Source of the DNA: Stappia stellulata DSM 5886
GTDB taxonomy: Bacteria; Pseudomonadota; Alphaproteobacteria; Rhizobiales; Stappiaceae
Length of the DNA: 64,000 nt
Assembly: GCF_000423705.1 (NCBI RefSeq)
Contig: NZ_AUIM01000012.1
Span: forward strand, 124,001 to 188,000
Reading direction: 5' to 3'
Below the pieces are notes generated by a model that worked only from the letters and a program-made list of their open reading frames with translations, did no database searches and had not been told where the DNA came from. The translations under genes were made by a program, and so were the position numbers. Below, piece after piece: positions 7,939 through 33,172 of the stretch. Numbering within the stretch: the first letter of the stretch is position 1; each line of letters begins with the position of its first letter.

Positions 7939-8016
7939 GTTCAGGCCTGCCGGCGGGACGGTCGGGCCGGTCGTCCCGTCGCACCCCGGACGGGCCGGTC
8001 GAGACCGGGTGCCGCC

Positions 8017-9408: not shown

Positions 9409-9531
9409 GAACCCCTCCCGCTTCTGTCATCGCTGCCGCGCGATGGCGGCGGGCGGGATCATGGCGTGCGAATCGCGGCCCGTCATCCGTGCAGTGCGGC
9501 AATGACGCAAACAAAAGGATGCGTGACGTTT

Positions 9532-14825: not shown

Positions 14826-14830
14826 GTGCG

Positions 14831-15703: not shown

Positions 15704-15717
15704 GGGGGACGGCTGAC

Positions 15718-16674
15718 ATGGAATGGATCGGTCTTGCCAATTATGCCGTCTTCATGGCGATTTTCATCTGCATTTATGCGTTGCTGTCGCTGGGGCTGAA
15801 CATCCAGTGGGGCTTCACCGGCCTCTTCAACGCGGGCATCGCGGGGTTCTTCGCCGTCGGCGCCTATACCTCCGCAGTCCTGACGTCGCCGGCCGCCGAG
15901 GGACGGCTCGGCGGGTTCGACCTGCCGGTGCCGATTGGGTGGATCGGGGCGATGGTGGCCGCGGCCCTGATCGCCTGGCCGATCGGAAAGATCTGTCTGA
16001 GGTTCCGTTCCGATTATCTGGCCATCGCCACCATTGGCGTCGCCGAGATCATCCGTCTGGTGATCAAGTCGGAGGACTGGCTGACCAATTCGGCGCGGGG
16101 CATCACCGATATCCCGCGGCCTTTCGGCGATCTTCCCTACGTCTACTCGCAGCTCGCCTATCTCGCCATCGTCGCCAGCGTGTTGTTCGTCGCCTATCTG
16201 ATGGTGGAACGCCAGATCGCAGCGCCCTGGGGGCGGATGATGCGCGCCATTCGCGACAATGAGGACGCCGCCCGCGCCATGGGCAAGGACGTGCCGTTCC
16301 GCCGGCTGGAGGCCTTTATCTTCGGCTCCGCGCTGATGGGACTGGGCGGGGCGCTGTTTGCCCATTTCAACCGCACGATCACGCCGGAGGCGATCGATCC
16401 GATGATCGCGACCTTCCTGGTGTGGATCATGTTGATCCTCGGCGGTTCGGGCAACAATCGCGGCGCGATCCTGGGTGTGGCCGTTGTCTGGATCATCTGG
16501 TCGATGTCGGAGATCGTCACCGACCAGCTGCCGCATGAATATGCGGTGAAGGCGAAATACATGCGCGTTTTCCTGATCGGGCTGATGCTGCAGCTGGTGC
16601 TGCGCTTCCGTCCCGAAGGGCTTTTGCCGGAGCCGCAGGGGACGCGCGCAGAGATGTCTGAAAAGTCGAAATGA
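15718..16674 (+). CDS. Branched-chain-type ABC importer permease, LivM-like (cluster 1)
   Basis: 318-residue membrane permease with LNIQWGFTGLFNAGIAGFF, the LivM hallmark, and the coupling loop AIRDNEDAARAMGKDVPFRRL. ATG at 15718 follows TAGGGGGGACGG, 14 bases after the livH stop. Fourth gene of the importer set; the binding protein follows after 118 bases containing a small GCGGC/GCCGC hairpin. Confidence 0.9.
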   Translation: MEWIGLANYAVFMAIFICIYALLSLGLNIQWGFTGLFNAGIAGFFAVGAYTSAVLTSPAAEGRLGGFDLPVPIGWIGAMVAAALIAWPIGKICLRFRSDYLAIATIGVAEIIRLVIKSEDWLTNSARGITDIPRPFGDLPYVYSQLAYLAIVASVLFVAYLMVERQIAAPWGRMMRAIRDNEDAARAMGKDVPFRRLEAFIFGSALMGLGGALFAHFNRTITPEAIDPMIATFLVWIMLILGGSGNNRGAILGVAVVWIIWSMSEIVTDQLPHEYAVKAKYMRVFLIGLMLQLVLRFRPEGLLPEPQGTRAEMSEKSK

Positions 16675-16792
16675 AGCTTGTGGGGACGGCACGTTTCGGT
16701 TGAGACTGTCGCCTCAGACGGGACCGGAAAAACGGATCCCGGCAAGACGTGCGGCTCCAGGCCGCAGCGTGAATCATAAGTGGAGGTGAGTG

Positions 16793-17992
16793 ATGAACAA
16801 GTTCCGTACCGCCCTGGCCGCGACGCTGCTCGGCGCGACGGCGATGGCCGCACCGGCACAGGCCGACGTGAAGATCGGTCTTCTGGGCGGGGTGTCCGGT
16901 CCGATCGCGGCAATGGCGCCTGCGATGATCGACAGTGCCCGCCTTGCCGTCCAGCAGGTGAACGACAACGGTGGCATTCTCGACGGCGAAAAGCTGGTCG
17001 CGGTGATCGGCGACAGCGCCTGCAATCCGCAGAACGGCACCGATGCGGCCACCAAGGCGGTCAACATCGAAAACGTTGTCGGCATTGTCGGTCCGCATTG
17101 CTCGGGCTCGGTTCTCGCCGCGGCCAACTCGGTCACCATTCCCGCCGGCGTCACCATCATCTCGCCGTCCGGAACCTCGCCGGAAATCTCCGGTCTCAAC
17201 GACAATGACACCGTGTTCCGCACCGTGCCGTCCGACGACTTCCAGGGGCGCGCGCTTGCCCGCACGCTGCTCCTGCGCGACACGGCCAAGGTCGCCGTTG
17301 CCTATCTCAACAACGACTACGGCAAGGGCCTTGCCGAATCCTTCCGCGACGAGTTCGAGGGCAATGGCGGCGAGATCGCCGGCTTCGCAGCCCATGAGGG
17401 CGAGAAGGCTTCCTACCGTTCGAACCTGGCCGAGCTTGCCTCGGGCGGCGCCGACACGCTGGTGATCTTCGATTACGGCGACGGCTCCGGTCTCACCATG
17501 CTGCGCCAGGCGCTGGAAAACGGCTTCTTCACCAACTTCGTCGGCGGCGACGGCATGAAGTCGGATGCCCCGATCAAGGAGCTCGGCGCGGAAAACCTGA
17601 CCACCTTCCTCTCCTCGGCTCCGGTGGGCGAAAAGTCGGATTCGCTTGAGATGTTCGGCAAGGCATTCGCCGAAATCGGCGGCGACCCGGCGGCGATCTT
17701 CGCCACGACCTCCTATGACGCGGCCTTCATGCTGGCGCTTGCCATCGAAAAGGCCGGCGGCGACAAGGCCAAGGTCTCCGCATCGCTGCGCGAGATTTCC
17801 AACGGCGAAGGCGAGCCGATCCGCGCTGGAGAATGGGCGAAGGCCAAGGAGCTGATCGCAGCCGGCACCGCCATCGACTACAAGGGCGCGGCCGGCGACC
17901 ACAACTTCGACGACAAGGGCGACGTTCCGGGCACCTATGCCCTGTTCAAGGTCTCCGGCGACAACTTCGAGGTCGTGACGGAAATCCAGTAA
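16793..17992 (+). CDS. Periplasmic amino-acid-type binding protein, LivK-like (cluster 1)
   Basis: 399 residues with a clear signal peptide (MNKFRTALAATLLGATAMAAPAQA, cleavage before DVKIG), then the type I periplasmic fold opening VKIGLLGGVSGPIAAMAPAM. TGGAGG lies 6 bases before the ATG at 16793; a GTG three bases earlier is a poorer choice. It recognises the cargo of the importer next to kynUAB, so tryptophan or kynurenine is the leading guess; branched-chain amino acids remain possible. A strong terminator follows. Confidence 0.88.
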   Translation: MNKFRTALAATLLGATAMAAPAQADVKIGLLGGVSGPIAAMAPAMIDSARLAVQQVNDNGGILDGEKLVAVIGDSACNPQNGTDAATKAVNIENVVGIVGPHCSGSVLAAANSVTIPAGVTIISPSGTSPEISGLNDNDTVFRTVPSDDFQGRALARTLLLRDTAKVAVAYLNNDYGKGLAESFRDEFEGNGGEIAGFAAHEGEKASYRSNLAELASGGADTLVIFDYGDGSGLTMLRQALENGFFTNFVGGDGMKSDAPIKELGAENLTTFLSSAPVGEKSDSLEMFGKAFAEIGGDPAAIFATTSYDAAFMLALAIEKAGGDKAKVSASLREISNGEGEPIRAGEWAKAKELIAAGTAIDYKGAAGDHNFDDKGDVPGTYALFKVSGDNFEVVTEIQ

Positions 17993-20674: not shown

Positions 20675-20786
20675 CACGGCGGAAACGCCATCCCTTCCGG
20701 TCCTTCTGGCGCGTGCATCCCGGGGAAAGGCGCTCCCCGCGCGGCCTGCCCAGGCCGGCAAACCCCTTGCGTCAGCCTCTCAAAAC

Positions 20787-20811
20787 ATGAATAGTGATTC
20801 ATAATTCATGT
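20787..20811. promoter_or_regulatory. Operator-like element upstream of the TetR/acyl-CoA operon
   Basis: ATGAAT, 4 bases, ATTCAT forms a perfect inverted repeat at 20787-20802, followed by another ATTCATG at 20804-20810. The segment TGATTCATAATTCATGT (20795-20811) recurs as TGATTCATGTTTCATGT at 31105-31121 upstream of the second importer operon. It overlaps a possible ATG at 20808, favouring the downstream GTG as the real start. Confidence 0.7.
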
Positions 20812-20831
20812 TGGGAGGCGGCGGAGAGACG

Positions 20832-21563
20832 GTGAGCAATCCGAAGGAAACCGGTTCGCGACCGGAGAAGGGGGCGGCGGGCTCAAGCCGGAGCCGGGCG
20901 AAATCCGCCGTCGCGGCCCAGACAGCGGCTGCGGGCCGGCGGCCGGAGCCGGCGGCGCCCAAGCCGAAGACCGCGCGCGGCGAGGCGACCAGGCGCGCCA
21001 TCCTGTCGGCGGCGGAAAGGGTCATCGGCGAGCAGGGCTTCAACGAGGCCTCCATCGGGTCGATCACCCGCGAGGCGGGCGTCGCGCAGGGCACATTCTA
21101 CATCTATTTTGCCAGCAAGGACGATGTCTTCTCCGAGCTTGTCGCCGACATGGGGCGCATGCTGCGCCATGCGATCAGCGAGGCGACCGCGGGCATCGCC
21201 GACCGGCTGGACGCGGAGCGTGCCGGCCTGCACGCGTTCCTGACCTTCGTCGCCGCCCATCCCGAGCTTTACCGCATCGTTCAGGAGGCGCAATTCGTCG
21301 ACCACAAGGCCTATCTCGCTTACTTTCGCACCTTTGCCGAAGGCTACCGCGAGGGGTTGGCGCTGGCGGCGGAAAACGGCGACATCCGCCCGGGCGACGC
21401 GGATATTCGCGCCTGGGCGCTGATGGGCATCGCGCGCTCGCTCGGCGAGTATTCCGTCGTCTTCGGCAGCGCTGCCTCGATCGATGAGATGGTCGATACA
21501 GCGCATGAGATGATCGTCCATGGCCTCGCTGCCGTTTCGGACCGGGGGGACGGCCATGCATGA
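20832..21563 (+). CDS. TetR/AcrR family regulator of the acyl-CoA gene cluster
   Basis: 243 residues from a GTG start with GGAG 5 bases upstream; an ATG at 20808 would lie inside the operator. A long basic, Ala/Pro-rich leader (about 45 residues) precedes the helix-turn-helix (TRRAILSAAERVIGEQGFNEASIGSITREAGVAQGTFYIYFASKDDVF). The ligand domain has HPELYRIVQEAQFVDHKAYLAYFRTFAEGY, as in regulators that sense acyl-CoA or aromatic ligands. It heads an operon with enoyl-CoA hydratase, ligase and MaoC genes and probably controls it and the operon ending at 25302. Confidence 0.87.
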   Translation: MSNPKETGSRPEKGAAGSSRSRAKSAVAAQTAAAGRRPEPAAPKPKTARGEATRRAILSAAERVIGEQGFNEASIGSITREAGVAQGTFYIYFASKDDVFSELVADMGRMLRHAISEATAGIADRLDAERAGLHAFLTFVAAHPELYRIVQEAQFVDHKAYLAYFRTFAEGYREGLALAAENGDIRPGDADIRAWALMGIARSLGEYSVVFGSAASIDEMVDTAHEMIVHGLAAVSDRGDGHA

Positions 21564-22350
21564 TCTTGCGCAATTGCGGGTCGAGGCGGGTGTCGCAACG
21601 CTGACCCTCGACCGGTCCGGACGCGGCAATGCCCTGGTGCCGGAACTGCTCGACGCCATGCGCGACTGCCTCGCGCGGGCGGCCCGCGCGGATGTGCATG
21701 TGCTTGTCCTGAACGCGAAGGGGCGTGCGTTCTCCGCCGGCGGCGATGTCGCGGGGTTTGCCGGACACGGCGCGGACACGCAAGCGCTTCTGGCCTATTC
21801 GGCGGACATCGTGGGCGCCCTCAACCGCACCATCCTCGATCTGCTCGCCTTTCCGGCACCGGTGGTGGCGGCCGTCAACGGCGCGGTGACCGGCGGGTCG
21901 GTGGGGTTCGTGCTTGCCTCAGACATTGCGGTGATGAGCGAGCGGGCGTTCCTGCAGCCGTACTACGGCGACATGGGGTTTGCCCCCGACGGTGGCTGGA
22001 CAGCGCTTCTGCCCGAGCGCATCGGCGCCGCCAAGGCATTGGAAGTGCAGTATCTCAACACGCGGCTCGATGCGCGCGCCTGTCGCGATCTGGGGCTGGC
22101 GAGCCGGGTTGTGTCGCCCGAGGAGCTGGAGGGCGAGACCGATGCGCTGGTGAAGGTGATTGTCTCCAAGGACCCCGCAAGCCTGAAGGCAAGCCGCGCC
22201 AACGTCTGGTCGCCGTCGCGGCGGGCGCGGGTCGCCGCCGCGCTCGAGCGTGAGCGCGCCGGCTTCCTGCGGCTGATCGCGCGTCCCGAAACGGCCGCCC
22301 GCATGGCAGCCTTTCTGGCACCGGCGGCTTTTGCGGAGAAAGGACGCTGA
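21556..22350 (+). CDS. Enoyl-CoA hydratase/isomerase family protein
   Basis: 264-residue crotonase-fold protein. The oxyanion-hole segments are KGRAFSAGGDVAGF and VNGAVTGGSVGFVLASDIAVM. The usual catalytic glutamate region reads LQPYYGDMGFAPDGGW, so the classical hydratase glutamates are not evident and an isomerase or other crotonase reaction is possible. The start overlaps the TetR gene by 8 bases, after GGGGGGA. It acts on a CoA thioester made by the next gene's ligase. Confidence 0.88.
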   Translation: MHDLAQLRVEAGVATLTLDRSGRGNALVPELLDAMRDCLARAARADVHVLVLNAKGRAFSAGGDVAGFAGHGADTQALLAYSADIVGALNRTILDLLAFPAPVVAAVNGAVTGGSVGFVLASDIAVMSERAFLQPYYGDMGFAPDGGWTALLPERIGAAKALEVQYLNTRLDARACRDLGLASRVVSPEELEGETDALVKVIVSKDPASLKASRANVWSPSRRARVAAALERERAGFLRLIARPETAARMAAFLAPAAFAEKGR

Positions 22351-22351
22351 C

Positions 22352-23911
22352 ATGGACTGGCTTACCGACATGGCGGCCCAGCGGGCGGAACTGACGCCGG
22401 ACCGCCCGGCCTTCACCGATCACGCGAGCGGCTGGACGCTCACCTTCGCCGAGGTGAATGCGCGCGCGGACCGGATGGCGCGGGCCTTTGGCGCGCTCGG
22501 CCTCGGCGAGGGCGAGCGCGTCGCGGTGCTGTGCCACAATCATCCGGATTTCTTCGTTCTGTTGTTCGCGGCCCAGAAGTCGGGCGTGATCCTGCTTCCG
22601 CTCAACTGGCGGCAGCCGCCGCCGGAACTGGCGCCCGTGCTGGAGCAGGCCGGTGCCCGGATCTTGCTGCATGACGCGGCCACCCGCGAGGCGGCGGCAA
22701 CCCTTTGTGACGGAACGTCGGTTCGTCGCCTCGGCTTTGCCGATGCATCGCGGGGAGCGGGGGAGGAGAGCCTTGGCGATGTGGCCGAAGGCCTTGCGCC
22801 GACTGCAGCTCCGGCCGCGTCCCGGCGGATCCCCGCCGAGGCGCCCTGGTATCTGCTTGCCACTTCCGGCACCACAGGTGCACCCAAGCTGGTGGTCCAG
22901 ACACCGACGATGGCCTGGGCCAATGCGGTGAACTACAGCCAGGCGACAGGATTGTCCGGCGACGACACGGCGGTGAACTTCCTGCCGCTCTTCCACACCG
23001 CCGGCATCAACCTGATGACGCTGCCGCTTTTTCTCGCCGGCGGTCATTCCATCGTGTTGCGCAAGTTCGAGGCGGAAACCGTGCTGGACCTCGTGGGTCG
23101 TGGCCGGATCACCGCCTTCTTCGGCGTTCCGGCGATCTACCAGGCACTCGCGCTCGATCCGCGCTTTGAAACCGTCGATTTCGCGCCGCTGCGCTCGCTC
23201 GGCTGCGGCGGGGCGCCGATGCCCGCGCCCCTGCTGCGCACCTATCTGGCGCGCGGCGTGACCGTGTGCAACGGCATGGGCATGACCGAGACGGGGCCGA
23301 CGGTGTTCCTGGCCGATGCCGCGCGCGCTCCGGAAAAGATCGGCTCCGTGGGCAAGGCGCAGATTCTTACCGAGGTGCGTCTGGTTTCGCCGAACGGCGC
23401 GGTCGTCGAAGGCGCCGGGGAGGGGGAACTGCAGATCCGCGGACCGGGCGTCACGCCAGGCTACTTCGAGAACCCCAAGGCGACCGCCGAGGCCTTCGCC
23501 GAGGGCGGATGGTTGCGCTCCGGCGACATCGCCCGTCGGGACGCCGACGGCTATTACGCCATCGTCGACCGGATCAAGGACATGTATATCTCGGGTGGCG
23601 AGAACGTCTATCCGGCGGAGGTCGAGAACGTGCTTGTCACCCATCCGGCGGTGCTCGATGCGGTGGTCCTCGGCGTTCCGGACGAGAAATGGGGGGAGGT
23701 TGGCGCCGCCTATCTGATCCCGCGCCCCGGCATGGGGATCGATGCCGCCGCGCTGGTCACCTGGTGCCGGGAACGGCTCGCCGGCTACAAGGTGCCCCGC
23801 CACATCGAAATCGTCGATGACCTGCCGCGCACCGCCGCCGGCAAGGTTCAAAAACACATCCTCAAGATGCAACACGCCGAGACCGGCAAGGAAGAAAGGC
23901 AGGGCCGATGA
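22352..23911 (+). CDS. Acyl-CoA synthetase (AMP-binding, class I ligase)
   Basis: 519 residues of the ANL superfamily. The P-loop YLLATSGTTGAPKL is at 167-180, GMGMTETGPTVF is the A5 motif, YISGGENVYPAEVEN the hinge region, and LPRTAAGKVQK carries the C-terminal catalytic lysine. It activates a carboxylic acid to its CoA ester using ATP; the acid could be medium-chain, aromatic or cyclic and cannot be told from sequence. The gene directly follows the enoyl-CoA hydratase with GGAGAAAGGA as ribosome site. Confidence 0.9.
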   Translation: MDWLTDMAAQRAELTPDRPAFTDHASGWTLTFAEVNARADRMARAFGALGLGEGERVAVLCHNHPDFFVLLFAAQKSGVILLPLNWRQPPPELAPVLEQAGARILLHDAATREAAATLCDGTSVRRLGFADASRGAGEESLGDVAEGLAPTAAPAASRRIPAEAPWYLLATSGTTGAPKLVVQTPTMAWANAVNYSQATGLSGDDTAVNFLPLFHTAGINLMTLPLFLAGGHSIVLRKFEAETVLDLVGRGRITAFFGVPAIYQALALDPRFETVDFAPLRSLGCGGAPMPAPLLRTYLARGVTVCNGMGMTETGPTVFLADAARAPEKIGSVGKAQILTEVRLVSPNGAVVEGAGEGELQIRGPGVTPGYFENPKATAEAFAEGGWLRSGDIARRDADGYYAIVDRIKDMYISGGENVYPAEVENVLVTHPAVLDAVVLGVPDEKWGEVGAAYLIPRPGMGIDAAALVTWCRERLAGYKVPRHIEIVDDLPRTAAGKVQKHILKMQHAETGKEERQGR

Positions 23912-24744
23912 CCGCGTCCCACGCAGACGACGCCGTGTGCGGCGAGCCCTCGGAAATCGTCGTTCGCTGGACACCGGTGCAGGTCGATTTCGACCGCTTT
24001 GCGGCACTGTCCGGCGATGACAATCCGATCCATGTCGACCCGGCGTTCTCCGCGCGCACCCGGTTTGGACGCACGGTGTCGCACGGCATGCTGCTCTATT
24101 CCAGGCTCTGGGCGCTGATCCGCACCCGATGGCCCGGTTGCCGGCACGCGCTGCAGGACCTGATGTTTCCCAATCCCGCCTATGCGGAGGAGGAACTGAC
24201 GATCGCCGTTGTGCCGGGCGACACGGATGCCGATGACCTTGCGATCACGATCCGGCGGGTGGCGGATGACGCGGAGGTGCTGCGCGGACGGTGCCGTCTG
24301 GGGGATGCGCCGGGCGCTGGAGCAAACGGCCCCGAAACGTCCGCGCCCGACGGGCCGGACCGGGACACGCCGCAACAGGAGGCGCTGGCGGTCGGTCGGA
24401 GCGCGGAACTCATGCGGCTTTATCCGAGCGCGCAGGCCTCCGACTTTGCAGCACTTGCCAGGCTGGACAATGTGCCCGACACGGTGCCGGAACCGCTGAT
24501 CGGCGGGATGTTTTCCTATCTGCTGGGCGTGAAGCTGCCGGGCTTCGGAACCAACTACCTCAAGCAGGAAATGACCTTTCATGCGCCGGCGGGCTTCGAT
24601 GTTCCGTTGCGGGCGCGGGTCACGGTCACCCGGCTTCGCCCGGAAAAGCACCTCGTCGACCTGGAAACGGTCTGCGAGACGCTGGACGGGGAGGTCATCT
24701 GCACGGGGCGTGCGCTGGTCTACGTGGAAGACGTCGGCGCCTGA
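23908..24744 (+). CDS. MaoC-like (FAS1-type) dehydratase/hydratase, double hot-dog
   Basis: 278 residues with an N-terminal MaoC hot-dog domain carrying the hydratase 2 motif, ALSGDDNPIHVDPAF followed by RFGRTVSHGML (Asp and His catalytic pair), and a C-terminal half resembling a second hot-dog. Such proteins hydrate enoyl-CoA to (R)-3-hydroxyacyl-CoA or dehydrate branched acyl-CoA. The start overlaps the ligase stop by 4 bases. A crotonase and a MaoC enzyme in one operon suggest two hydration steps of a non-standard acyl-CoA. Confidence 0.83.
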   Translation: MTASHADDAVCGEPSEIVVRWTPVQVDFDRFAALSGDDNPIHVDPAFSARTRFGRTVSHGMLLYSRLWALIRTRWPGCRHALQDLMFPNPAYAEEELTIAVVPGDTDADDLAITIRRVADDAEVLRGRCRLGDAPGAGANGPETSAPDGPDRDTPQQEALAVGRSAELMRLYPSAQASDFAALARLDNVPDTVPEPLIGGMFSYLLGVKLPGFGTNYLKQEMTFHAPAGFDVPLRARVTVTRLRPEKHLVDLETVCETLDGEVICTGRALVYVEDVGA

Positions 24745-24758
24745 GGGCGGGACAGGCA

Positions 24759-24790
24759 CAAAAAAACACCGCCGGCGGGCCGGCGGTGTT
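24759..24790 (-). terminator. Terminator of the cold-shock gene
   Basis: An 11-bp stem AACACCGCCGG / CCGGCGGTGTT with loop CGGG sits between the convergent MaoC and csp genes. Read on the minus strand it is followed by a run of T, so it ends csp; on the plus strand it has only TT. Confidence 0.88.
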
Positions 24791-24819
24791 CTCGTCAGGG
24801 TCGACGTGCCGGGAAAGGC

Positions 24820-25032
24820 TCAGTCGAGCGCGAGCTGCGCGGCCTGGAGGCCACGGCCGCGACGATCTTCTTCCGTCACGAAGGTCAGCGTGGTGCCTTC
24901 AGCCGGAACGGCCATGCCCGAACGTTCGAAAGCGGTGATGTGAACGAACACGTCCTTGCCGCCTTCGGCCGGCGTGACGAAACCAAAACCACGATCATGG
25001 TTGAAGAACTTGAGGGTGCCTGTCTGGCGCAT
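24820..25032 (-). CDS. Cold-shock domain protein (CspA family)
   Basis: 70-residue single cold-shock domain, an RNA chaperone that melts mRNA secondary structure. RNP1 GFGFVTP and RNP2 DVFVHI are both present, with GTLKFFNHDRG at the front. The family normally shows strong post-transcriptional regulation through a long leader; here about 200 bases upstream contain several hairpins. It lies as an island between the two halves of the acyl-CoA/importer gene block, facing the first. Confidence 0.95.
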   Translation of the reverse strand: MRQTGTLKFFNHDRGFGFVTPAEGGKDVFVHITAFERSGMAVPAEGTTLTFVTEEDRRGRGLQAAQLALD

Positions 25033-25065
25033 GGGAAACTCCTGTCCCGAGTCTTAGTTTAAAGA

Positions 25066-25153
25066 GCGCAAGTAAGCGCACTTGCTTGCGCGAGCGTGGC
25101 ATTCAGAAACGGGAAAGGCAGTTCTGTCCGACAGAACCGGTCTTTTGGACCGG
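25066..25153 (-). promoter_or_regulatory. Structured 5' leader of the cold-shock gene
   Basis: The leader holds at least three inverted repeats: GCGCAAG/CTTGCGC (25066-25091), the 8+1+8 hairpin GTTCTGTC-C-GACAGAAC (25121-25137), and immediately after it CCGGTC/GACCGG (25137-25153). Such tandem hairpins fit an RNA thermosensor or translation control element in the csp mRNA, but they could also be promoter-proximal binding sites. Confidence 0.5.
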
Positions 25154-25301
25154 GTAAGGCGCCGCATACCGAAACTTTCTTAACCGGGGTTCGAATTTTC
25201 AAGCCCGCTTGTGAAGGACCAAAGTCCAACGACGGCATGGTAGTCGAAACGGGCCATTCCGGCAAGGGCATTGAGAATTGACGTAGGGTTTTCCGCGCGC
25301 G

Positions 25302-26099
25302 TTACTGGGCCTTGCAAAGCTCGGCAAGGAGCGCGTTGTACGCCTCCGGGGCCTCCAGATGGGGGGCGTGGCCCGCGCGCGGGACGGGAACGATGCGGCC
25401 CTGTTGCAGACGCTCAAGCTGCCATTCGGCGGCGTCTCCGGCGTAGAGCTGGCTCTGGCCTCCGGGCGTCAGGGTGACGGGGATGTCGATCCGGCCGACG
25501 AGGTGGCGAAAGTCCTGCGCGGTGAGCGATCCCCACATGGCGGCGAGCGCCGGCCCGTTCGCCTTGCGCATCTCGGCTTCCGCGAAGCCGACGAGCTGTT
25601 CCGGCGCGTCCGGCGCGAAGCTGCGGCGCGCGGTGGCGCCGACCAGACGCGGCCATTGGCTGAAGACCGCGCGGGCAAAGTCCCGGCTGCGCGCGGCATC
25701 GAGGCCCGAGCGCGTGCCATGCGCCCAGTCCGCGTCGTTCAGCACCTTCGGCGACATGTCCTCCACCACGAGATGGGCGAGACGGCTCGTGCCGTGGCGT
25801 TCGATCATCGACCAGGCGACCAGCGCACCCATCGACCAGCCGACCAGCACGACGTCGTCGAGGTCCTCCGCCGCAAGCAGCTGCTCGAGCGCATCGGCGG
25901 CCGCCCCGATGGTCAGGTCCCCGGTTTGGGCGCTTTCACCATGGCCGGGAAGGTCCGGGGCGATCACGCGGGTCTTGCGGCCGAGCGCCTCCATCTGCGG
26001 ACGGAAGAAGCCGCCATGGCACGACCAGCCGTGCAGCAGCACGAGCGGGCGCGCGTCCAGCCTTCGGCTTCCGGCCACGCGCGGGTGAAGAAGGGTCAT
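25302..26099 (-). CDS. Alpha/beta hydrolase
   Basis: 265 residues with a canonical fold: LLHGWSCHGGFF oxyanion region, nucleophile Ser89 in GWSMG, and RAGHAPHLEAPE with the catalytic histidine. The start overlaps the upstream permease stop (ATGA), so it is the last gene of the importer operon 31030-25302. A hydrolase tied to an importer suggests cleavage of an imported ester, lactone or amide before CoA activation by the convergent ligase operon. Confidence 0.87.
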   Translation of the reverse strand: MTLLHPRVAGSRRLDARPLVLLHGWSCHGGFFRPQMEALGRKTRVIAPDLPGHGESAQTGDLTIGAAADALEQLLAAEDLDDVVLVGWSMGALVAWSMIERHGTSRLAHLVVEDMSPKVLNDADWAHGTRSGLDAARSRDFARAVFSQWPRLVGATARRSFAPDAPEQLVGFAEAEMRKANGPALAAMWGSLTAQDFRHLVGRIDIPVTLTPGGQSQLYAGDAAEWQLERLQQGRIVPVPRAGHAPHLEAPEAYNALLAELCKAQ

Positions 26100-27154
26100 C
26101 CGCGGCTCCGCAGCCGGCCCACGACGCCATCGGGAAAGAAATAGACGGAGACGATGAAGAGCACGCCAAGCCACATCAGCCAGCGTTCCGGGGCGACGAG
26201 ATCGGGAATGAGCGGCAGCATGCCGGTGGCGTGTTCGGCCGCCCCCATCAGGCTCTGCAGATAGGTCTGCGCGAGGATGAAGAGCGTGGCGCCGATCATC
26301 GCGCCATACATGGTGCCCATGCCGCCGATCACCACCATCAGCAGGATGTCGATCATGATCTCCATCGAGAGTGTCGTCGCCGGTCCGGTGTAGCGGATCC
26401 AGATCGCAAGCAGCGCGCCGGCAAGCGCGGCAACGCAGGCCGACAGGACGGTGGCGGCAGTGCGGTACCAGATCACCCGGTAGCCGATCGCCTCGGCGCG
26501 GAAGGCATTGTCGCGCACGGCCTTCAGCGTGCGGCCGAAGGGCGAGTTGACGATCCTGAGAAGCCCCAGGAAGAGCACCAGCGCGGAGACGAAGACGAGA
26601 TAATAGGCGAGCAGCCGGCCGTCGATGCGCACGTCCAGGATGCGCATGTCGAGAAGCTTGAAGGCCGGTGTCAGCACGCGCGGGATACGATAGGTGAGCC
26701 CGTCCTCGCCGCCGGTGATCGTGGAAAGCTGCGAGACCAGCACGGCGAAGGCGCTGGCGACCGCCAGCGTCACCATGGCGAAGAAGATCGCCTTCACCCT
26801 GAGCGAGAACAGTCCGATGGCAAGCGCCAGCGCACCCGCCACCGCGGTGCCGCCGAGAACGCCGACGAGGATCGCGGTGAAGGAGGCCCCGAGCGCGGAG
26901 AGCGACAGCGCCACGCCATAGGCGCCGATGCCGAAGAACATCGTATGCGCGAAGGAGACGATCCCCGTGTAGCCGAGCAGCAGGTCGTAGCTTGCCACCA
27001 GCACGATGAAGATGCAGATGCGCGCCGCCGTATCGAGCGACTTGGTGCCGGGAAACAGGAAGGGCGCGAAGGCCAGCGCCAGCGCGATGACGATGAGAAC
27101 GAGCGCCAGCGGTCGCGAGTTCGGGCGGTCGCCGGAAAGGAGCCTGTCGATCAT
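26096..27154 (-). CDS. Branched-chain-type ABC importer permease, LivM-like (cluster 2)
   Basis: 352-residue membrane permease. The LivM hallmark is SYDLLLGYTGIVSFAHTMFFGIGAYGVAL, and the coupling loop is AVRDNAFRAEAIGYRVIWYRT. About ten hydrophobic helices. It follows the LivH-type gene after 9 bases and overlaps the hydrolase gene. Cargo unknown; context suggests a carboxylic acid or ester rather than a branched-chain amino acid. Confidence 0.9.
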   Translation of the reverse strand: MIDRLLSGDRPNSRPLALVLIVIALALAFAPFLFPGTKSLDTAARICIFIVLVASYDLLLGYTGIVSFAHTMFFGIGAYGVALSLSALGASFTAILVGVLGGTAVAGALALAIGLFSLRVKAIFFAMVTLAVASAFAVLVSQLSTITGGEDGLTYRIPRVLTPAFKLLDMRILDVRIDGRLLAYYLVFVSALVLFLGLLRIVNSPFGRTLKAVRDNAFRAEAIGYRVIWYRTAATVLSACVAALAGALLAIWIRYTGPATTLSMEIMIDILLMVVIGGMGTMYGAMIGATLFILAQTYLQSLMGAAEHATGMLPLIPDLVAPERWLMWLGVLFIVSVYFFPDGVVGRLRSRG

Positions 27155-27163
27155 GGATGCATC

Positions 27164-28192
27164 CTACTTCGCCTTGACGACGGGATAGAGCCCCTCGGGC
27201 CGCCACATCAGCACGCCGACCATCAGCGCGATGGTGGAGACGAGAGCGACCTTGGGGGCCAGGAACGTCATGTAGTTTGAGAGCAGGCCGACCAGCAGCG
27301 CACCGATGAAACAGCCCTCGATGGAACCGAGCCCGCCGATGATGACGACGATGAAAACCAGCACCATCAGGTCCGATCCCATATGCGCGGTGATCGTCTC
27401 GTTGTAGAGACCCCACATCACGCCGCCGAGGCCGGCGAGTGCCGACCCGACCATGAACACCACGAGGAACAACCGGCGGATGCGGTAGCCGAGCGCTTCG
27501 ACCATCTCGCCGTTTTCGACGCCTGCACGCACCAGCAGGCCGACCTTGGTCGATCTCAGGACGTGACGCATGCCGAGGAACAGCACCAGGCCGATGGCGA
27601 CGGCGAACAGGCGGTATTTCTCGATCACCGCATCGAAGACGATGACCGAGCCGCGCAGCGACTGCGGCCGGGCGACATGGATCGCGTCCGGCCCCCACAC
27701 CACATGGATGAGCTGCTGGGCGACGATCAGCCCGCCCATGGTCACCAGGATCTGCTTCAGGTGATGACCGTAGACGGGTGCGACAATGACGCGCTCGAAG
27801 GCGAGGCCGAGCACGCCGGTCACTGCCATGGAGGCGAGGATCGCGAGAAAGACGGCGGCAAGGTTCATGATCACCGCCGGGTTTTCGGTCCAGCCGGCAA
27901 GCCAGGCCAGCACGGTGAAGCCGACGAAGGCGCCGACGGAGACGAAAGCGCCGTGGCCGAAGTTGATCACGTCCATCAGGCCGAAGACGACCGTCAGTCC
28001 CGAGGCCATGATGAAGATCATCAGACCCATGGCGAGCCCGGCCACCGTCAGCGTGAGCCATGTTGCGGGATCGGCGATGGCGATCAGCCCCGCCAGCGCC
28101 ATGACGGGTGCAAGCAGCAAGGGTGCGGCCTTGCGCAGCCGGTCGCCGGCGGACGCCGCCACCAGCTTGGGTCGGATCGCGGTTTCGCTCAT
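27164..28192 (-). CDS. Branched-chain-type ABC importer permease, LivH-like (cluster 2)
   Basis: 342 residues, longer than a typical LivH by an N-terminal extension with one extra hydrophobic helix (residues 20-43). The hallmark GLTVVFGLMDVINFGHGAFVSVGAF is clear, and the coupling loop GVENGEMVEALGYRIRRLF is intact. The start overlaps the LivF-type gene by 4 bases. Part of the operon that begins at 31030. Confidence 0.9.
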   Translation of the reverse strand: MSETAIRPKLVAASAGDRLRKAAPLLLAPVMALAGLIAIADPATWLTLTVAGLAMGLMIFIMASGLTVVFGLMDVINFGHGAFVSVGAFVGFTVLAWLAGWTENPAVIMNLAAVFLAILASMAVTGVLGLAFERVIVAPVYGHHLKQILVTMGGLIVAQQLIHVVWGPDAIHVARPQSLRGSVIVFDAVIEKYRLFAVAIGLVLFLGMRHVLRSTKVGLLVRAGVENGEMVEALGYRIRRLFLVVFMVGSALAGLGGVMWGLYNETITAHMGSDLMVLVFIVVIIGGLGSIEGCFIGALLVGLLSNYMTFLAPKVALVSTIALMVGVLMWRPEGLYPVVKAK

Positions 28193-28914
28193 TGGTGCAC
28201 CTCCAGGCTCAGTCCCATCAGCCGTTCCTGCATCCCGGCGTCGCCGGAAAGCTCGGCCATGTCGCCGGCATGCACGACGCGGCCGTCGTCCATCACCGAC
28301 ACCGTGTCGCCGAGCGCGGAGGCCATGGCGAAATTCTGTTCCACCAGCAGGATGGTCGTGTCCGTCTCCTTGAGTTCACCGAGCGCGCGCGTCATCGCCG
28401 TGACGATGGCCGGGGCAAGCCCCTTGCTCGGCTCGTCGATCAGGATCAGCCGGCGCGGTTCGATGATGGCGCGCGCAACCGCGAGCATCTGCTTCTGCCC
28501 GCCCGACAGGGTGCCGGCGGGTTTCTCCCAGAAGGTTGCGATTGGCGGGAACAGCGCCTTGATCCAGGACAGACGGGTCGCATCGAAGGCGCCCTGCGTT
28601 GCCGCAAGCTGCATGTTCTCGCCGACCGTGAGGTCGGAGAAGACCCCCATGTTCTCCGGCACATAGGCAATGCCGGCGCGCGAGATCGCAGGCGTCGGCG
28701 TCCCGCCGATCAAGCGCCCGTCGAAGCGGATCTCGCCCCGGCTTGGCTTGAGAAGCCCCATGATCGTGCGCAAGGTGGTGGACTTGCCCGCGCCGTTGCG
28801 GCCCAGAAGCACGCTGACCCCGCCGCGCGGGACCACGAGGTCGACACCTTGCAGGATGTGATAGGGGCCGATGTGGGTGTGGACGCCGGAAAGCGTCAGA
28901 AGCGGATCAGCCAT
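28189..28914 (-). CDS. Branched-chain-type ABC importer ATP-binding protein, LivF-like (cluster 2)
   Basis: 241 residues. Walker A GRNGAGKST is at about 38-46, the signature reads TLSGGQKQMLAVARAI and Walker B LILIDEPSKGLAP, all typical of LivF in carboxylate/amide HAAT importers. It overlaps the preceding LivG-type gene by 8 bases. Confidence 0.9.
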   Translation of the reverse strand: MADPLLTLSGVHTHIGPYHILQGVDLVVPRGGVSVLLGRNGAGKSTTLRTIMGLLKPSRGEIRFDGRLIGGTPTPAISRAGIAYVPENMGVFSDLTVGENMQLAATQGAFDATRLSWIKALFPPIATFWEKPAGTLSGGQKQMLAVARAIIEPRRLILIDEPSKGLAPAIVTAMTRALGELKETDTTILLVEQNFAMASALGDTVSVMDDGRVVHAGDMAELSGDAGMQERLMGLSLEVHQ

Positions 28915-29740
28915 GAGCGGTTTCCTCCGCGCCCGGTTTCGGTGCCGGTTCCGGTGCCTTGCCGAGATAGGCCTCCTGCACGATGGCCGAACGCATCACC
29001 TCGCCCGGGTCGCCGTCGGCGACGAGTTCGCCGTTGTGCAGCACGATGATGCGGTCGGCGAGGGAGCGGATCACGTCCATCTTGTGTTCCACCAGAAGGA
29101 TGGTGCGGTCGCGGTCGCGCTTGAGGTCGCGGATCAGGTCGAGAATGACGGGAACCTCGTCGACACTCATGCCCGCGGTCGGCTCGTCGAACATCAGCAC
29201 CTGGGGGCCGAGCGCGATCATCAGCGCGACTTCCAGCTTGCGCTGGTCGCCATGCGGCAGGGCGGAGACGGCAAGCTCGCGCTTTTGCAGGAGATTGACC
29301 TCCGACAGAACATGATCGGCGCGTTCCGTGAGTTCGACATGGCTGTCGGCGCGCGAGAACAGATCGAAGCCCCGGTTGGCGCGGGCCTGCACGACGAGGC
29401 GGACGTTCTCGCGTACGGTGAGGCTTGGAAACAGGTTGGTGAGCTGGAAGGCCCGTCCGATTCCGCGGGTGCAGCGTTCGGCGACACTCAGCCTGGTGAT
29501 CGTTTCGCCGTTGAGGCGGACCTCTCCGGCACTTGCCTTCAACTGCCCGGAGATCAGGTTGAAATAGGTGGTCTTGCCGGCGCCGTTCGGCCCGACGATG
29601 GCGGTCAATGTGCCGCGCTGGAACGCGCAGGAAACATGATCGACCGCCACATGACCGCCAAAGCGGATCGTCAGGTCCCGGGTCTCGAGCACCGGTGGCT
29701 CGACGGGTGGCGCCTGGCCGGCAGGGTCTTCGCGCGTCAC
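28907..29740 (-). CDS. Branched-chain-type ABC importer ATP-binding protein, LivG-like (cluster 2)
   Basis: 277 residues from a GTG at 29740 with GGAG 8 bases upstream; the frame is open 17 codons further but without a ribosome site. Walker A GPNGAGKT is present; the signature is the LivG variant ALPHGDQRKLEVALMI rather than LSGGQ, and Walker B is VLMFDEPTAGMS. It is separated from the upstream binding-protein gene by 108 bases containing a strong hairpin. Confidence 0.88.
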   Translation of the reverse strand: MTREDPAGQAPPVEPPVLETRDLTIRFGGHVAVDHVSCAFQRGTLTAIVGPNGAGKTTYFNLISGQLKASAGEVRLNGETITRLSVAERCTRGIGRAFQLTNLFPSLTVRENVRLVVQARANRGFDLFSRADSHVELTERADHVLSEVNLLQKRELAVSALPHGDQRKLEVALMIALGPQVLMFDEPTAGMSVDEVPVILDLIRDLKRDRDRTILLVEHKMDVIRSLADRIIVLHNGELVADGDPGEVMRSAIVQEAYLGKAPEPAPKPGAEETAHG

Positions 29741-29804
29741 GGCTGCATCTCCGAAAGAGGGCGGAAAACGGCGGCGCGGCCGCCGTCTCACAGGCCAGAA
29801 GGCG

Positions 29805-29840
29805 GGAGAGGGAGGCGGCGCGTGTGCCGCCTCCCTCTCC
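29805..29840 (-). promoter_or_regulatory. Intercistronic 15-bp hairpin between binding protein and LivG genes
   Basis: GGAGAGGGAGGCGGC pairs perfectly with GCCGCCTCCCTCTCC around a 6-base loop. No T-run follows on either strand, so it is not a classical terminator. Hairpins at this place usually protect the upstream binding-protein mRNA from 3' decay and make it more abundant than the membrane subunits. Confidence 0.7.
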
Positions 29841-29848
29841 GGGGGACG

Positions 29849-31030
29849 TCAGCGTCCGTTGCGCACCGGGATCGACATGTCCTCGATCTTCAGTTCGCGA
29901 ACCAGCTCGGGAATGCCCCATTCGACGTCCGGATCGACCCGGATCTTGAAGTGGTACATCGACTGCAGCGCCTGATGGTCCTCGGCACGGAAGGTCATCG
30001 TGCCCTTGGGCGTTTCGAAGGACATGCCTTCCATCGCCGCGATCAGCTCTTCGGTGTCGGTCGAGCCGGCCTTGCGGATGCCCTCGACCACGGCAATCGC
30101 CGCCGACATGCCTCCGGCCGTGAAGAAATCCGGCGGCGACTGGAAGCGCTTGTCGTGTTCGGACACCAGCCAGTCGTTTGCCGGGTTCTCCGGGATCTCG
30201 TGGTAGTAATAGGTCGCGCCTTCCATCCCGGGCAGGGCCTTGTAGGCTTTCATCGCCGCCAGGATGTTGCCGCCGGTGGCGATCTCGATGCCGAGCCGGT
30301 CCGGCTCCATCGCCTTGATCTTGCCGATCGGGTTGTTGCCGCCGGCCCAGATGATGAAGAGGAACTTGCGGCCCTCGACATCCTTCATGGCCTCGAAGAT
30401 GCGCTGGGCGCTGGCGGTGAAGTCCTGCGTGTCGGTCGGTGCGTATTCCTCGAAGGCAAGCGTTGCGCCGGTGCCGGCGAGCGCTTCCTTGAAGGCGGCG
30501 ACGCCGTCGCGGCCGAAGGCATAGTCCTGCGCAAGCGTCGCGATGGTCACGCCCTCCTGGCCGAGCGCGACGGCATTGGCGATCGCGTCCTGCGAGGAAT
30601 TGCGCGCGGTGCGGAAGATGTAGCGGTTCCAGTTTTCGCCGGTGATGCTGTCGGCGACCGCCGGCTCGACGATCAGGAGCTTGCCGTATTCCTCCGCGAC
30701 CGGGAGCATCGCAAGCGCCACGCCCGACGACACGGGCCCGACCGCAATGTCGACCTCGTCGTCGCCATAGGCTTCGGCAAGGGCCGCGCGGGCGATGTCG
30801 GGCTTGAGCTGGGTATCCTTCTCGATCACGACGATCTTGCGACCGTCGATTTCCATCGTCCCGTCGGTGGCATATTCAAGTCCCATCATGAAGCCGGTGT
30901 GGGACTGTTTCGCATAGGCCTCGAGCGCGCCGGTCTTTCCGTAGACATGGGCGATCTTGATGTCGTCGGCCATGGCCGGCGCGCCCGCGAGCGCGGCCGC
31001 CACAACGGCGGCGGCGTAAAGATGTCTCAT
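29849..31030 (-). CDS. Periplasmic binding protein, LivK-like (cluster 2)
   Basis: 393 residues with a signal peptide (MRHLYAAAVVAAALAGAPAMA, cleavage before DDIKIAHVYG). The type I periplasmic fold shows KIAHVYGKTGALEAYAKQSHTG and a C-terminal half rich in acidic loops; the pattern resembles binding proteins for aromatic or short-chain acids more than LivK itself. ATG at 31030 follows GGGAGGAG. First gene of the operon (binding protein, G, F, H, M, hydrolase); an operator-like element lies about 75 bases upstream. Confidence 0.87.
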   Translation of the reverse strand: MRHLYAAAVVAAALAGAPAMADDIKIAHVYGKTGALEAYAKQSHTGFMMGLEYATDGTMEIDGRKIVVIEKDTQLKPDIARAALAEAYGDDEVDIAVGPVSSGVALAMLPVAEEYGKLLIVEPAVADSITGENWNRYIFRTARNSSQDAIANAVALGQEGVTIATLAQDYAFGRDGVAAFKEALAGTGATLAFEEYAPTDTQDFTASAQRIFEAMKDVEGRKFLFIIWAGGNNPIGKIKAMEPDRLGIEIATGGNILAAMKAYKALPGMEGATYYYHEIPENPANDWLVSEHDKRFQSPPDFFTAGGMSAAIAVVEGIRKAGSTDTEELIAAMEGMSFETPKGTMTFRAEDHQALQSMYHFKIRVDPDVEWGIPELVRELKIEDMSIPVRNGR

Positions 31031-31343
31031 GATGTCTCCTCCCGTTCGACGTCCGGTCGGCGCTTGGCATGAGCGGGTCGCGGCGTCTGCCAATATATGA
31101 CGCATGATTCATGTTTCATGTCAATTCGACCCGAGCGCGCCTCTGTCGCGCGTTCGCTCTCCCGCAAGCAGCCGAACACGGCGGACGGCGCCAGGTGGCT
31201 GCGTGCACCCGGTTTCGCCAATGCGGAGAAGCGTGATGGCTGTCACATCAAGCCCTGGCGCTTGCTTCTATCTTCAAGGCATAGGCGGACGACAGAGCCG
31301 CAGGGAAAAGTCGAACGGAAGCTCAGACAGAGGGAATGCAGTC
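31031..31343. other. Divergent intergenic region between importer operon and BA14K gene
   Basis: It contains the operator-like element at 31103-31121 about 75 bases before the importer start. The remaining part, toward the BA14K gene, is GC-rich and shows no convincing gene or specific promoter match. Confidence 0.55.
31103..31121. promoter_or_regulatory. Second copy of the TGATTCAT-type operator
   Basis: CATGA-T-TCATG (31103-31113) is a palindrome and TGATTCATGTTTCATGT (31105-31121) matches 15 of 17 bases of the element at 20795-20811. Both copies lie in promoter regions of operons with complementary functions. Confidence 0.7.
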
Positions 31344-31682
31344 ATGATGAAGAAGATCGCAGTCACCGGTTTTGCAATTGCCCTGACCGCCGGCGCCATG
31401 CTCGCGACCGGCTCCTCCGATGCCGAAGCGAAGAAGTGGCATCACCAGAACGGCTGGGCCGCGGCGGGCGGCTTCGTTGCCGGCGCCGTGATCGGCTCGG
31501 CCCTGTCCCAGCCGCGCTATGTCGCTCCGGCGCCGCAGTATGCGCCCGCGCCTGCCTACTATGGCCGGCCCGCGCCCTGGTCGCCCGCCTGGTACCGCTA
31601 TTGTTCGTCGAAGTATCGCAGCTTCAACCCGGACACCGGCTACTTCCGCACCTATTCCGGGAACTACAAGTTCTGCCGTTGA
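31344..31682 (+). CDS. BA14K family protein
   Basis: 112 residues: a signal-like hydrophobic stretch at 5-22, a glycine-rich membrane-type helix (WAAAGGFVAGAVIGSAL at 38-54), a Pro/Ala/Tyr-rich linker, and the C-terminal BA14K motif WYRYCSSKYRSFNPDTGYF with YKFCR at the end (two conserved cysteines). BA14K proteins are small envelope proteins of Brucella and relatives, some immunoreactive or lectin-like. ATG at 31344 follows GAGGG; a second ATG is 3 bases on. A terminator follows. Confidence 0.88.
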   Translation: MMKKIAVTGFAIALTAGAMLATGSSDAEAKKWHHQNGWAAAGGFVAGAVIGSALSQPRYVAPAPQYAPAPAYYGRPAPWSPAWYRYCSSKYRSFNPDTGYFRTYSGNYKFCR

Positions 31683-31708
31683 TTCGCCGCAGCGAAGATC
31701 AGGCAAGG

Positions 31709-31734
31709 AAGGGCCGGTCAAACCGGCCCTTTTT
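31709..31734 (+). terminator. Terminator of the BA14K gene
   Basis: AAGGGCCGGT / ACCGGCCCTT with a 3-base loop and TTTTT. It also lies near the 3' end of the convergent GGDEF gene and could work for both. Confidence 0.88.
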
Positions 31735-31777
31735 GCGCAATTGCGAGGTCTGTTCGCGGGGAACCGCAGGCAAGCGG

Positions 31778-33172
31778 TCAGAGCCCGGCCGGCCGGGACA
31801 CAGGATCGAGAAACCCGGAGACCGTGCGGTCGCGGCCATTGTCCTTGGCCCGGTAAAGCAGACGATCCGCCCGGGCGAAAGCGACGTCCATCGTTTCGCC
31901 ATCGCGATATTCGGTCACGCCGAGCGACATGGTGAGCGCGACCTCGCAGCCCTCGACCGTGATCGGTGTGGCATTCAGCAGCTTGCGCATGCGCTCGGCG
32001 CGTTCGACCGTATCGCTTGGGGAGGTGTCGGGAAGGAGAACGAGAAATTCCTCACCGCCGAGGCGCCCGAGGAATTCGGTGTCGCGCAATTGCGATTTGA
32101 TGCGTCGGCTGAATTCCTTCAGCACCTCGTCACCGGCGAAATGCCCGAGATCGTCGTTGACCTTCTTGAAGTTGTCGATGTCGAGGATCATCAGGCCGAG
32201 AGGCTTGCCGCGCGCCCTTGACCGGGCGCCGCAGTCGCGGGCGGCGGACAGGATGGCGCGTCGCGACATGGTTCCGGTCAGCTCATCGCGGTGCGCCAGT
32301 TCATAGAGCTCCGCCTGGCGCTCCTTCAGTTCGGTGATATCGACACGAAAGCCCACCGTTCCGCCGTTCGGCAGGCGCTTTTCCAGCACCCGCACCCAGC
32401 GTCCGTCCGGCAGAAGCTGTTCCACCGGACCGGTCGGGTTCGCGTGGGCCGCCAGGCGCTCCGCGATCCAGGCCTCTTCCTGCCCGATGGCTTCCGCATA
32501 CTGACGGCAGCGCACGCCCTCGCGGATGATTTCCTCGAAGCTGCGGCCCGGCCGGATGACATGGGCCGATTCCGGATAGGTTTCGCGATACTGTTCGTTG
32601 CAGATCGTCAAGCGGTCGTGCTCATCGTAGAGCACGAAACCGTCGGGAAGCGTCTCGATCGCTTCCACCATCACCTTCCAGGCATCGCGCGCGGTTCGTT
32701 CTGCGTGTTCATGATGTATCTCGCGAACCGCCAGATGCGCCATGTCCTCCAGGGACTGCCGGTCGATTTCCGTGTCGCGGACGGGTGACCGGCTCGCAAG
32801 GCACAGGGTGCCGATGGTGTTTCCGGCTGCGTCGCGAAGCGCGGTCCCGGCAAAGAACTGCAGGCCGAGCGCGGCGAGATCGACAGCCGGGTCGGCGGCC
32901 GATCTGCCTTTGCCTGCATGCTGGATCAACGGTGTGCGGCTCTTCAGGACGGCCGCTGCAAGCGCCGGCGCGGCGGCGCGCAGCGGTTCACATAGACCGT
33001 TGGAAAGAAAGCTCAGGCCATCGCGTGGTTCCCGAAGCGTCAGGAAAGCGCATTCAACGGAGCAAAGCCGCTTGAGGAGCCGGAACAGTCGCGCCAGAGA
33101 CGTGGCCGATGCATGGCCCTGCGCGCCCCCTGTTCGCTCAAAGGCCGATAGGGCGGTCTCTGTCAAAGGCAT
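31778..33172 (-). CDS. Diguanylate cyclase with GAF and PAS domains
   Basis: 464 residues from the ATG at 33172: a GAF-like domain at about 20-155, a PAS domain at about 165-285 (ETLPDGFVLYDEHDRLTICNE), then GGDEF at about 290-450. The active-site signature is GGEEF at 372-376, an active variant, and substrate-site residues DIDNFKKVNDDLGH are present, so it should make cyclic di-GMP. The allosteric I-site position reads RDTE rather than RxxD, so product inhibition may be weak. No membrane segment; a soluble sensor. The frame stays open upstream to a TTG at 33235. Confidence 0.87.
   Translation of the reverse strand: MPLTETALSAFERTGGAQGHASATSLARLFRLLKRLCSVECAFLTLREPRDGLSFLSNGLCEPLRAAAPALAAAVLKSRTPLIQHAGKGRSAADPAVDLAALGLQFFAGTALRDAAGNTIGTLCLASRSPVRDTEIDRQSLEDMAHLAVREIHHEHAERTARDAWKVMVEAIETLPDGFVLYDEHDRLTICNEQYRETYPESAHVIRPGRSFEEIIREGVRCRQYAEAIGQEEAWIAERLAAHANPTGPVEQLLPDGRWVRVLEKRLPNGGTVGFRVDITELKERQAELYELAHRDELTGTMSRRAILSAARDCGARSRARGKPLGLMILDIDNFKKVNDDLGHFAGDEVLKEFSRRIKSQLRDTEFLGRLGGEEFLVLLPDTSPSDTVERAERMRKLLNATPITVEGCEVALTMSLGVTEYRDGETMDVAFARADRLLYRAKDNGRDRTVSGFLDPVSRPAGL

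Follow-up and report, generated by a model that had tools for sequence, protein, structure and literature searches.

The window analysed here is the whole stretch of 64,000 nucleotides from Stappia stellulata DSM 5886 (contig NZ_AUIM01000012.1, positions 124,001 to 188,000), in which two operons face each other and each is preceded by a copy of one dyad sequence. The plus-strand operon behind site 1 encodes a TetR-family regulator, an enoyl-coenzyme A (CoA) hydratase, a CoA ligase forming adenosine monophosphate (AMP) and a MaoC hydratase, while the minus-strand operon behind site 2 encodes a binding protein, LivG, LivF, LivH, LivM and an alpha/beta hydrolase. An earlier reading of the DNA letters (the original prediction) had named these genes in the same way and had called the operons convergent; Pfam supports the naming, and the operons indeed run towards each other, separated by a cold-shock-like gene. 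Judging from sequence comparison, the two facing clusters very probably form one jointly controlled pathway. The two sites and the ten genes are as follows (positions of the window; E, expectation value; bp, base pairs).

20785..20811, operator 1: 27-bp dyad ACATGAATAGTGATTCATAATTCATGT, centred on TGATTCA, tetR promoter region, 11/13 pairs complementary
20832..21563, plus strand: TetR-family regulator, GTG start (PF00440, E 1.2e-14, 54.2 bits against a cut-off of 24)
21520..22350, plus strand: enoyl-CoA hydratase/isomerase, longest reading frame, the true start lying probably a little downstream of 21520 (PF00378, E 1.4e-32)
22331..23911, plus strand: AMP-forming acyl-CoA ligase (PF00501 and PF13193)
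23908..24744, plus strand: MaoC-type hydratase of two-domain length, 278 amino acids (PF01575, E 8.2e-15)
25302..26144, minus strand: alpha/beta hydrolase, longest reading frame (PF12697, E 8.6e-24)
26096..27154, minus strand: LivM-type permease (PF02653)
27164..28192, minus strand: LivH-type permease (PF02653)
28189..28914, minus strand: LivF-type ATPase (PF00005)
28907..29791, minus strand: LivG-type ATPase (PF00005; PF12399 just under its cut-off, 25.0 against 25.5 bits)
29849..31030, minus strand: periplasmic substrate-binding protein (PF13458, E 4.9e-55)
31095..31121, operator 2: 27-bp dyad ATATGACGCATGATTCATGTTTCATGT, importer promoter region, 10/13 pairs complementary

The shared element had originally been described as a 17-bp operator present in both promoter regions. 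Indeed, TGATTCATAATTCATGT at 20795-20811 and TGATTCATGTTTCATGT at 31105-31121 are identical at 15 of 17 positions, and each copy stands before an operon, with a gap of 20 bp to the GTG start codon of tetR (20832) and of 64 bp to the ATG of the binding-protein gene (31030, minus strand). The match is thus real, but the length has to be revised: since matches overlap on both strands, the true unit is longer than 17 bp, and the 17-bp match makes up the right-hand portion of a 27-bp dyad, AYATGA-N4-TGAWTCA-N4-TCATRT, with the centre TGATTCA. A purely 17-bp or direct-repeat site was rejected, as the conserved stretch ends sharply at the limits of the 27-bp dyad. The conserved core, TGA-N4-TGANTCA-N4-TCA, comprises 12 specified bases and can be read as two overlapping dyads, G5-C16 and G12-C23, each pair 11 bp apart and the two offset by 7 bp.

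In the window, a scan allowing up to three mismatches returned four overlapping matches, only at these two places, compared with a mean of 0.05 in 100 shuffles. Across the whole genome (4,608,496 bases), TGATTCATNNTTCATGT with up to two mismatches was found only at the two operator places (reversed control, 0), the 27-mer dyad with up to three mismatches over its 19 specified positions gave just two sites, and the core with up to one mismatch likewise gave two, both exact. The idea that the motif is common in unrelated promoters, raised in the original prediction as a way in which it could fail, was therefore rejected. ATGAATN4ATTCAT sites elsewhere in the genome (C3:915654 and C6:88920, one mismatch each) were also rejected, because they misfit the full dyad. 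From base composition, 0.17 dyad sites per genome are expected at up to three mismatches and 0.008 at up to two. By motif, the predicted regulon is just these two operons.

The same picture holds in the genus, where 13 of 14 Stappia genomes contain exactly two exact core sites. Operator 1 was found at tetR in all 13 genomes possessing the gene, and operator 2 is identical at 27/27 bases across the 13 with the importer operon. The remaining genome, G010, has no core site and is also without a close TetR (best E 3.8e-11, compared with 9.6e-91 or better elsewhere in the genus) and without the importer binding protein at E 1e-60. At looser settings, the 17-mer with two mismatches has scattered extra matches in several Stappia genomes, one of them in G010, and the 27-mer with three mismatches has one extra match each in G008, G011 and G010, with a reversed-control match in G008.

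Does the operator follow the regulator beyond the genus? Among 87 Stappiaceae genomes (TetR at E ≤1e-45, operator with up to two mismatches), both occur in 52, TetR only in 3, the operator only in 1 and neither in 31, for which the Fisher value (5e-19) should be taken as an indication only. The operator-only genome, G040, has a two-mismatch match with none of the window's proteins in the surrounding 3 kb. In Breoghania (G014), 160 kb separate the operon of tetR from that of importer and hydrolase, and an exact 27-bp site stands at both. In an order-level sample of 199 Hyphomicrobiales genomes, the binding protein is present at E 1e-120 in 22, 18 of them outside the family, and 12 of these 18 possess TetR (E 1e-30; six of the 12 represent one genus). 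In 12/12 genomes with TetR, the best match in the 4-kb locus is an importer-side operator (0-3 mismatches) 71-239 bp upstream of the binding-protein match; this holds for 0/6 without TetR, whose best matches have 5-7 mismatches; counted by genus, the result is 5/5 against 0/5. The Breoghania split together with the order-level contrast points to TetR as the protein reading the site. The original prediction had assigned both operons to one regulator, the TetR at 20832, and to one regulon, and this tracking of regulator and operator across genomes gives that assignment good support.

We regard it as very improbable that another, unlinked regulator binds the dyad and that TetR is a passenger of the cluster. 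Such a view could draw on the fact that TetR is linked to the dyad by genome comparison, and on genome G069, which keeps TetR without a recognisable site at tetR. It would, however, have to explain why the importer-side site disappears with TetR at order level even though the binding protein is present in all these genomes, and why the site stands beside tetR in unrelated phyla with differing neighbours.

This last observation comes from TetR relatives in named genomes, of which we considered the best 80 of at least 534 confirmed, the AGVAQGTF recognition helix being one of two fetch patterns. The best 80 loci include Roseibium, Breoghania, Tepidamorphus, Ferrovibrio, Prosthecomicrobium, Thalassobaculum, Marinobacter, Alcanivorax and Salinisphaera as well as Peptococcaceae, Nocardioides, Caldilineaceae, Ktedonobacteria, Trueperaceae and Myxococcales, and among them the TetR-operator pair is seen in at least six bacterial phyla. 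In a test set of 61 loci, i.e. the 80 minus 19 taken as Stappiaceae, the best match to the Stappia consensus precedes tetR in 43, and in 5 more it precedes the binding-protein gene only, in total 48. At tetR and the binding-protein gene, the reversed pattern scored 13 and 0 and 20 permuted patterns scored 5-18 and 0-3, respectively; either gene combined, the permuted patterns reached 5-21 of 61 loci. These non-zero control counts probably reflect AT-rich promoters. The core with up to one mismatch occurs 85 times in the 1.43 Mb of the 80 loci, and 72 of these sites lie at tetR or the binding-protein gene; at least one core site is present in 66/80 loci, and in 60/80 at one of these two genes. 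Base frequencies at core positions are biased by this selection of sites, whereas those at non-core positions are free of the bias.

The preference of AT-rich permuted patterns for upstream regions is what an origin of the similarity by chance or promoter composition would lead one to expect. Nevertheless, the 0.008 sites expected per genome contrast with two exact ones in nearly every Stappia genome, and this scarcity, the recurrence in the genus and the distant exact sites of Breoghania refute chance similarity, which we rate as practically negligible. The original judgement that chance agreement at two promoters is unlikely was thus well founded, given also the window shuffles and the restriction to two places genome-wide.

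The genes recur along with the operator. The set of TetR, hydratase, ligase and MaoC plus importer is found in alpha- and gammaproteobacteria, and in two Peptococcaceae (Acididesulfobacillus) loci, L130 and L136, TetR, ligase, binding protein and LivGFHM occur together. The sites of L130 are away from both tetR and the binding-protein gene: its two operator copies, spaced by 136 bp, precede a ketoacyl-synthase-III-like gene by ~50 and ~190 bp, and this gene is followed by an alpha/beta hydrolase and then TetR (~7789-9958). The sites of L136 (7771 and 7907) match those of L130 in spacing and place. Similar synthase genes were seen in the Chloroflexus (L164) and Caldilineaceae (L169) loci. In the loci checked, an alpha/beta hydrolase stands beside the gene set, of type Abhydrolase_1/6 in Ferrovibrio, Peptococcaceae, Caldilineaceae and Nocardioides and of type Abhydrolase_3 in Marinobacter and Alloalcanivorax. 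Based on this recurring neighbour, synteny suggests that what is imported either is already an ester or lactone or is turned into one.

Relative to putative promoters, the sites lie as follows.

20767..20795, plus strand: putative tetR promoter, TTGCGT (20767-20772), 17-bp spacer, AATAGT (20790-20795) inside operator 1; read by eye
31095..31124, minus strand: putative importer promoter, TTGACA (31124-31119), 18-bp spacer, TCATAT (31100-31095); operator 2 fills the spacer and the -10

On the tetR side, a TTG precedes the operator by 14-16 bp in 26/26 Stappiaceae sites listed (two from one genome; decayed sites such as those of L103-L105 and L112, and G007, are excluded), so that the -10 would fall inside the operator. 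On the importer side, a TTG directly abuts the operator in 19/19 Stappiaceae sites listed. A consensus promoter scan found no promoter at tetR and proposed a slightly different pair at the importer (ATGAAA-16-TATATT, 31119-31092), and the exact hexamers are therefore tentative. Whichever hexamers apply, both sites sit where a bound protein should block transcription. This geometry also bears on whether TetR might activate one or both operons rather than repress them. FasR of Mycobacterium tuberculosis is reported as an activating TetR protein (PMC7382501), and FasR structures are among the fold matches of the TetR model. Yet each site overlaps either the presumed -10 or the stretch from -35 to -10, tentative as the hexamers are, where a block of polymerase is expected, and we consider activation improbable.

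What kind of regulator is this TetR? Its family membership follows from PF00440 above cut-off, an all-helical predicted model (mean predicted local distance difference test score, pLDDT, 84.6) and the dyad at its own promoter. By sequence and by predicted fold, the closest solved structures of the 243-residue protein are 6el2/6en8, FadR of Sulfolobus: the S. acidocaldarius protein (FadRSa) scores 102.7 bits in phmmer over residues 44-214, and its chains occupy Foldseek ranks 1-5 (rank 1, E 1e-9), followed by other fatty-acid and acyl-CoA TetRs beside other TetRs. Three of the four FadRSa DNA contacts are conserved (Gly48 = G87, Tyr51 = Y90, Tyr53 = Y92), and the fourth, Tyr47, is replaced. None of the 19 NCBIfam families listed for the protein reached its cut-off (e.g. 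FadR 49.1/200, PsrA 26.5/300).

According to PMC6449355, FadRSa is released by acyl-CoA and binds as one or two dimers, and the binding of a second dimer is put down to a G-C pair lying 11 positions away from the symmetric C-G. The present system resembles it, as far as that source describes it, in autoregulation (predicted here), few sites, dyad operators, clustering of lipases/esterases with CoA-ester enzymes and the 11-bp G-to-C spacing; the likeness concerns spacing and architecture. It differs in protein identity (~32%), in the 16-bp motif reported there against the 27-bp dyad here, and in the regulon, there a 30-kb cluster of lipases and beta-oxidation enzymes (PMC6449355). Since G5-C16 and G12-C23 share the 11-bp distance at an offset of 7 bp, two dimers probably bind per site. 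The TetR-type FadR of Bacillus (3whb, 3whc, 5gp9) shares the fold and is an acyl-CoA-dependent regulator of fatty acid degradation, but with only 19-23% identity and an NCBIfam score far below its cut-off. QacR, which controls drug efflux, has an operator of similar length to the 27-bp dyad. Two overlapping inverted repeats are bound by two dimers in QacR-type operators, as mentioned in PMC6449355, a mode that is only predicted here. PA3973 of Pseudomonas aeruginosa (PMC9736018) is a TetR binding its own promoter beside acyl-CoA genes, with TGAATC/GATTCA half sites; its 14-bp palindromes, 13-bp motif SAAGRNMTGAACG and 308 chromatin immunoprecipitation (ChIP) peaks differ from the 27-bp architecture. 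No description of the present regulon or motif was seen among the matches listed in searches of open-licence papers.

Based on these relatives, the CoA ester that the ligase produces is the most likely effector. A single regulon whose effector is instead the free substrate or an aromatic compound, e.g. a hydroxycinnamate, rather than a fatty-type acyl-CoA, is a less likely but serious alternative. The second-best solved relative of the ligase is labelled feruloyl-CoA synthetase (8wev), and binding proteins of this class from R. palustris bound aromatic, fatty or dicarboxylic acids (PMC3223731). On the other hand, the regulators nearest to this TetR in sequence and fold respond to acyl-CoA, and the hydratase stays far under the p-hydroxycinnamoyl-CoA hydratase/lyase cut-off (86.8 against 276 bits). 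The substrate would belong to the hydrophobic carboxylic acids or their esters, and may be a fatty, dicarboxylic, aromatic or terpenoid acid.

We therefore favour, with considerable confidence though from genome sequences, a two-operon regulon in which TetR is an autorepressor acting on both dyads, is released by an acyl-CoA, and controls uptake, hydrolysis, CoA activation and hydration. TetR (20832) would bind the 27-bp dyad before its own operon and before the importer-hydrolase operon and block both promoters, covering the presumed -10 region and start at tetR and filling the presumed -35 to -10 interval at the importer. Once substrate enters, the ligase would convert it to acyl-CoA; the acyl-CoA, or a later CoA ester, would bind TetR and release it from the operator, and uptake, hydrolysis, CoA activation and hydration would rise together. 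This provides a two-operon regulon with a base-level operator for gene sets otherwise labelled 'branched-chain amino acid type transporter' and 'enoyl-CoA hydratase', and a system ready for electrophoretic mobility shift assays (EMSA) by which the inducer, and hence the substrate, could be identified. As operator and regulator go together across phyla, the operator may serve to find and join pathway parts elsewhere, even when they lie apart as in Breoghania.

Several observations weigh against this interpretation. Fisher values overstate certainty, as the genomes are related; in the other two TetR-only genomes besides G069, G044 and G080, the site at the expected position has decayed (5 and 4 mismatches); and G173, one of the six order-level genomes without TetR, is only 84% complete. 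The invariance of the AGVAQGTF recognition helix is partly built in by the fetch pattern. A core site with up to one mismatch is missing from 14/80 TetR loci, and in 6/80 it occurs only away from tetR and the binding-protein gene. Of the siteless loci, 10/14 have no hydratase, MaoC or binding-protein match in the fetched DNA, which is short for some, and part of the TetR clade therefore probably does something else. Siteless L121 (Marinobacter) lacks a hydrolase match but otherwise has the whole gene set; the set is complete in L112, and at least hydratase, ligase and MaoC are present in L128 and in L105, which is a short contig. L112 and L105 appear to be the genomes G044 and G080 with their decayed sites. 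In the protein, the fourth FadRSa DNA contact, Tyr47, is Gln86, and at the DNA level the consensus scan is silent at tetR, as described above. Finally, the Pfam scan found no acyl-CoA dehydrogenase or thiolase among the ten operon proteins, leaving the pathway incomplete, so that later steps would be encoded elsewhere or the acid would be already unsaturated.

Ten TetR relatives with 44-51% identity (L134, L137, L143, L144, L145, L151, L152, L155, L156 and L158) have no hydratase or binding-protein neighbours in the fetched DNA. Five of the ten are titled Ectothiorhodospiraceae, and eight lack a core site, L134 and L156 having one. They are perhaps a branch with another operator or role.

By sequence comparison, the system belongs to a known kind, the acyl-CoA-type TetR regulons, with wide joint conservation of regulator and operator. 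A broader proposal, which we hold to be about evenly balanced between right and wrong, is that a TetR clade related to the archaeal FadR has kept a near-fixed 27-bp double-dyad operator in at least six phyla and controls a mobile module of hydrolase, Liv importer, CoA ligase and hydratases for one unnamed class of exogenous ester or acid. If true, operator conservation of this degree would be out of the ordinary among TetR proteins and would point to a catabolic pathway not yet characterised.

Curated families did not assign a substrate: no NCBIfam cut-off was reached by any of the ten operon proteins, among the best 25 families where lists were larger (for the enoyl-CoA hydratase, the best 25 of 69; for the acyl-CoA ligase, of 105). 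The closest solved structures of the binding protein are 3n0x (607.6 bits) and 3nnd (582.9 bits), which we take to be from Rhodopseudomonas palustris; a link of these two to a ligand was sought and none was found. In place of the two-domain MaoC gene, two MaoC genes or matches of ~115-150 amino acids were seen in L042, L045 and L047 (Stappia), in L125, L131 and L133 (gammaproteobacteria) and in L102. The Alloalcanivorax locus L125 (11509-13980) has an 823-residue NHL-repeat protein between hydratase and ligase, and Microbulbifer L133 (11474-13951) has a frame of similar length, 825 residues, at the same place.

Two further features lie between the convergent operons.

24766..24789: GC-rich hairpin, terminator-like on the minus strand with a run of T after it; read from the sequence and not among the sites that a scan reported
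24820-25032, minus strand: cold-shock-like gene, named from its sequence

Next to operator 2, a plus-strand frame (31097-32221) that runs across the site was rejected as a coding gene: it looks non-coding, and the plus-strand gene there appears to start at 31344. This gene (31344-31682), ~220 bp from the operator and divergent from that of the binding protein, encodes a small protein (MMKKIAVTGFAIALTAGAMLATG...) that looks secreted. A few kb upstream of tetR, the window holds a second Liv-type ATP-binding cassette (ABC) importer (13351-17380, plus strand), whose parts are 26-36% identical; it has no operator copy and recurs in several Stappia relatives.

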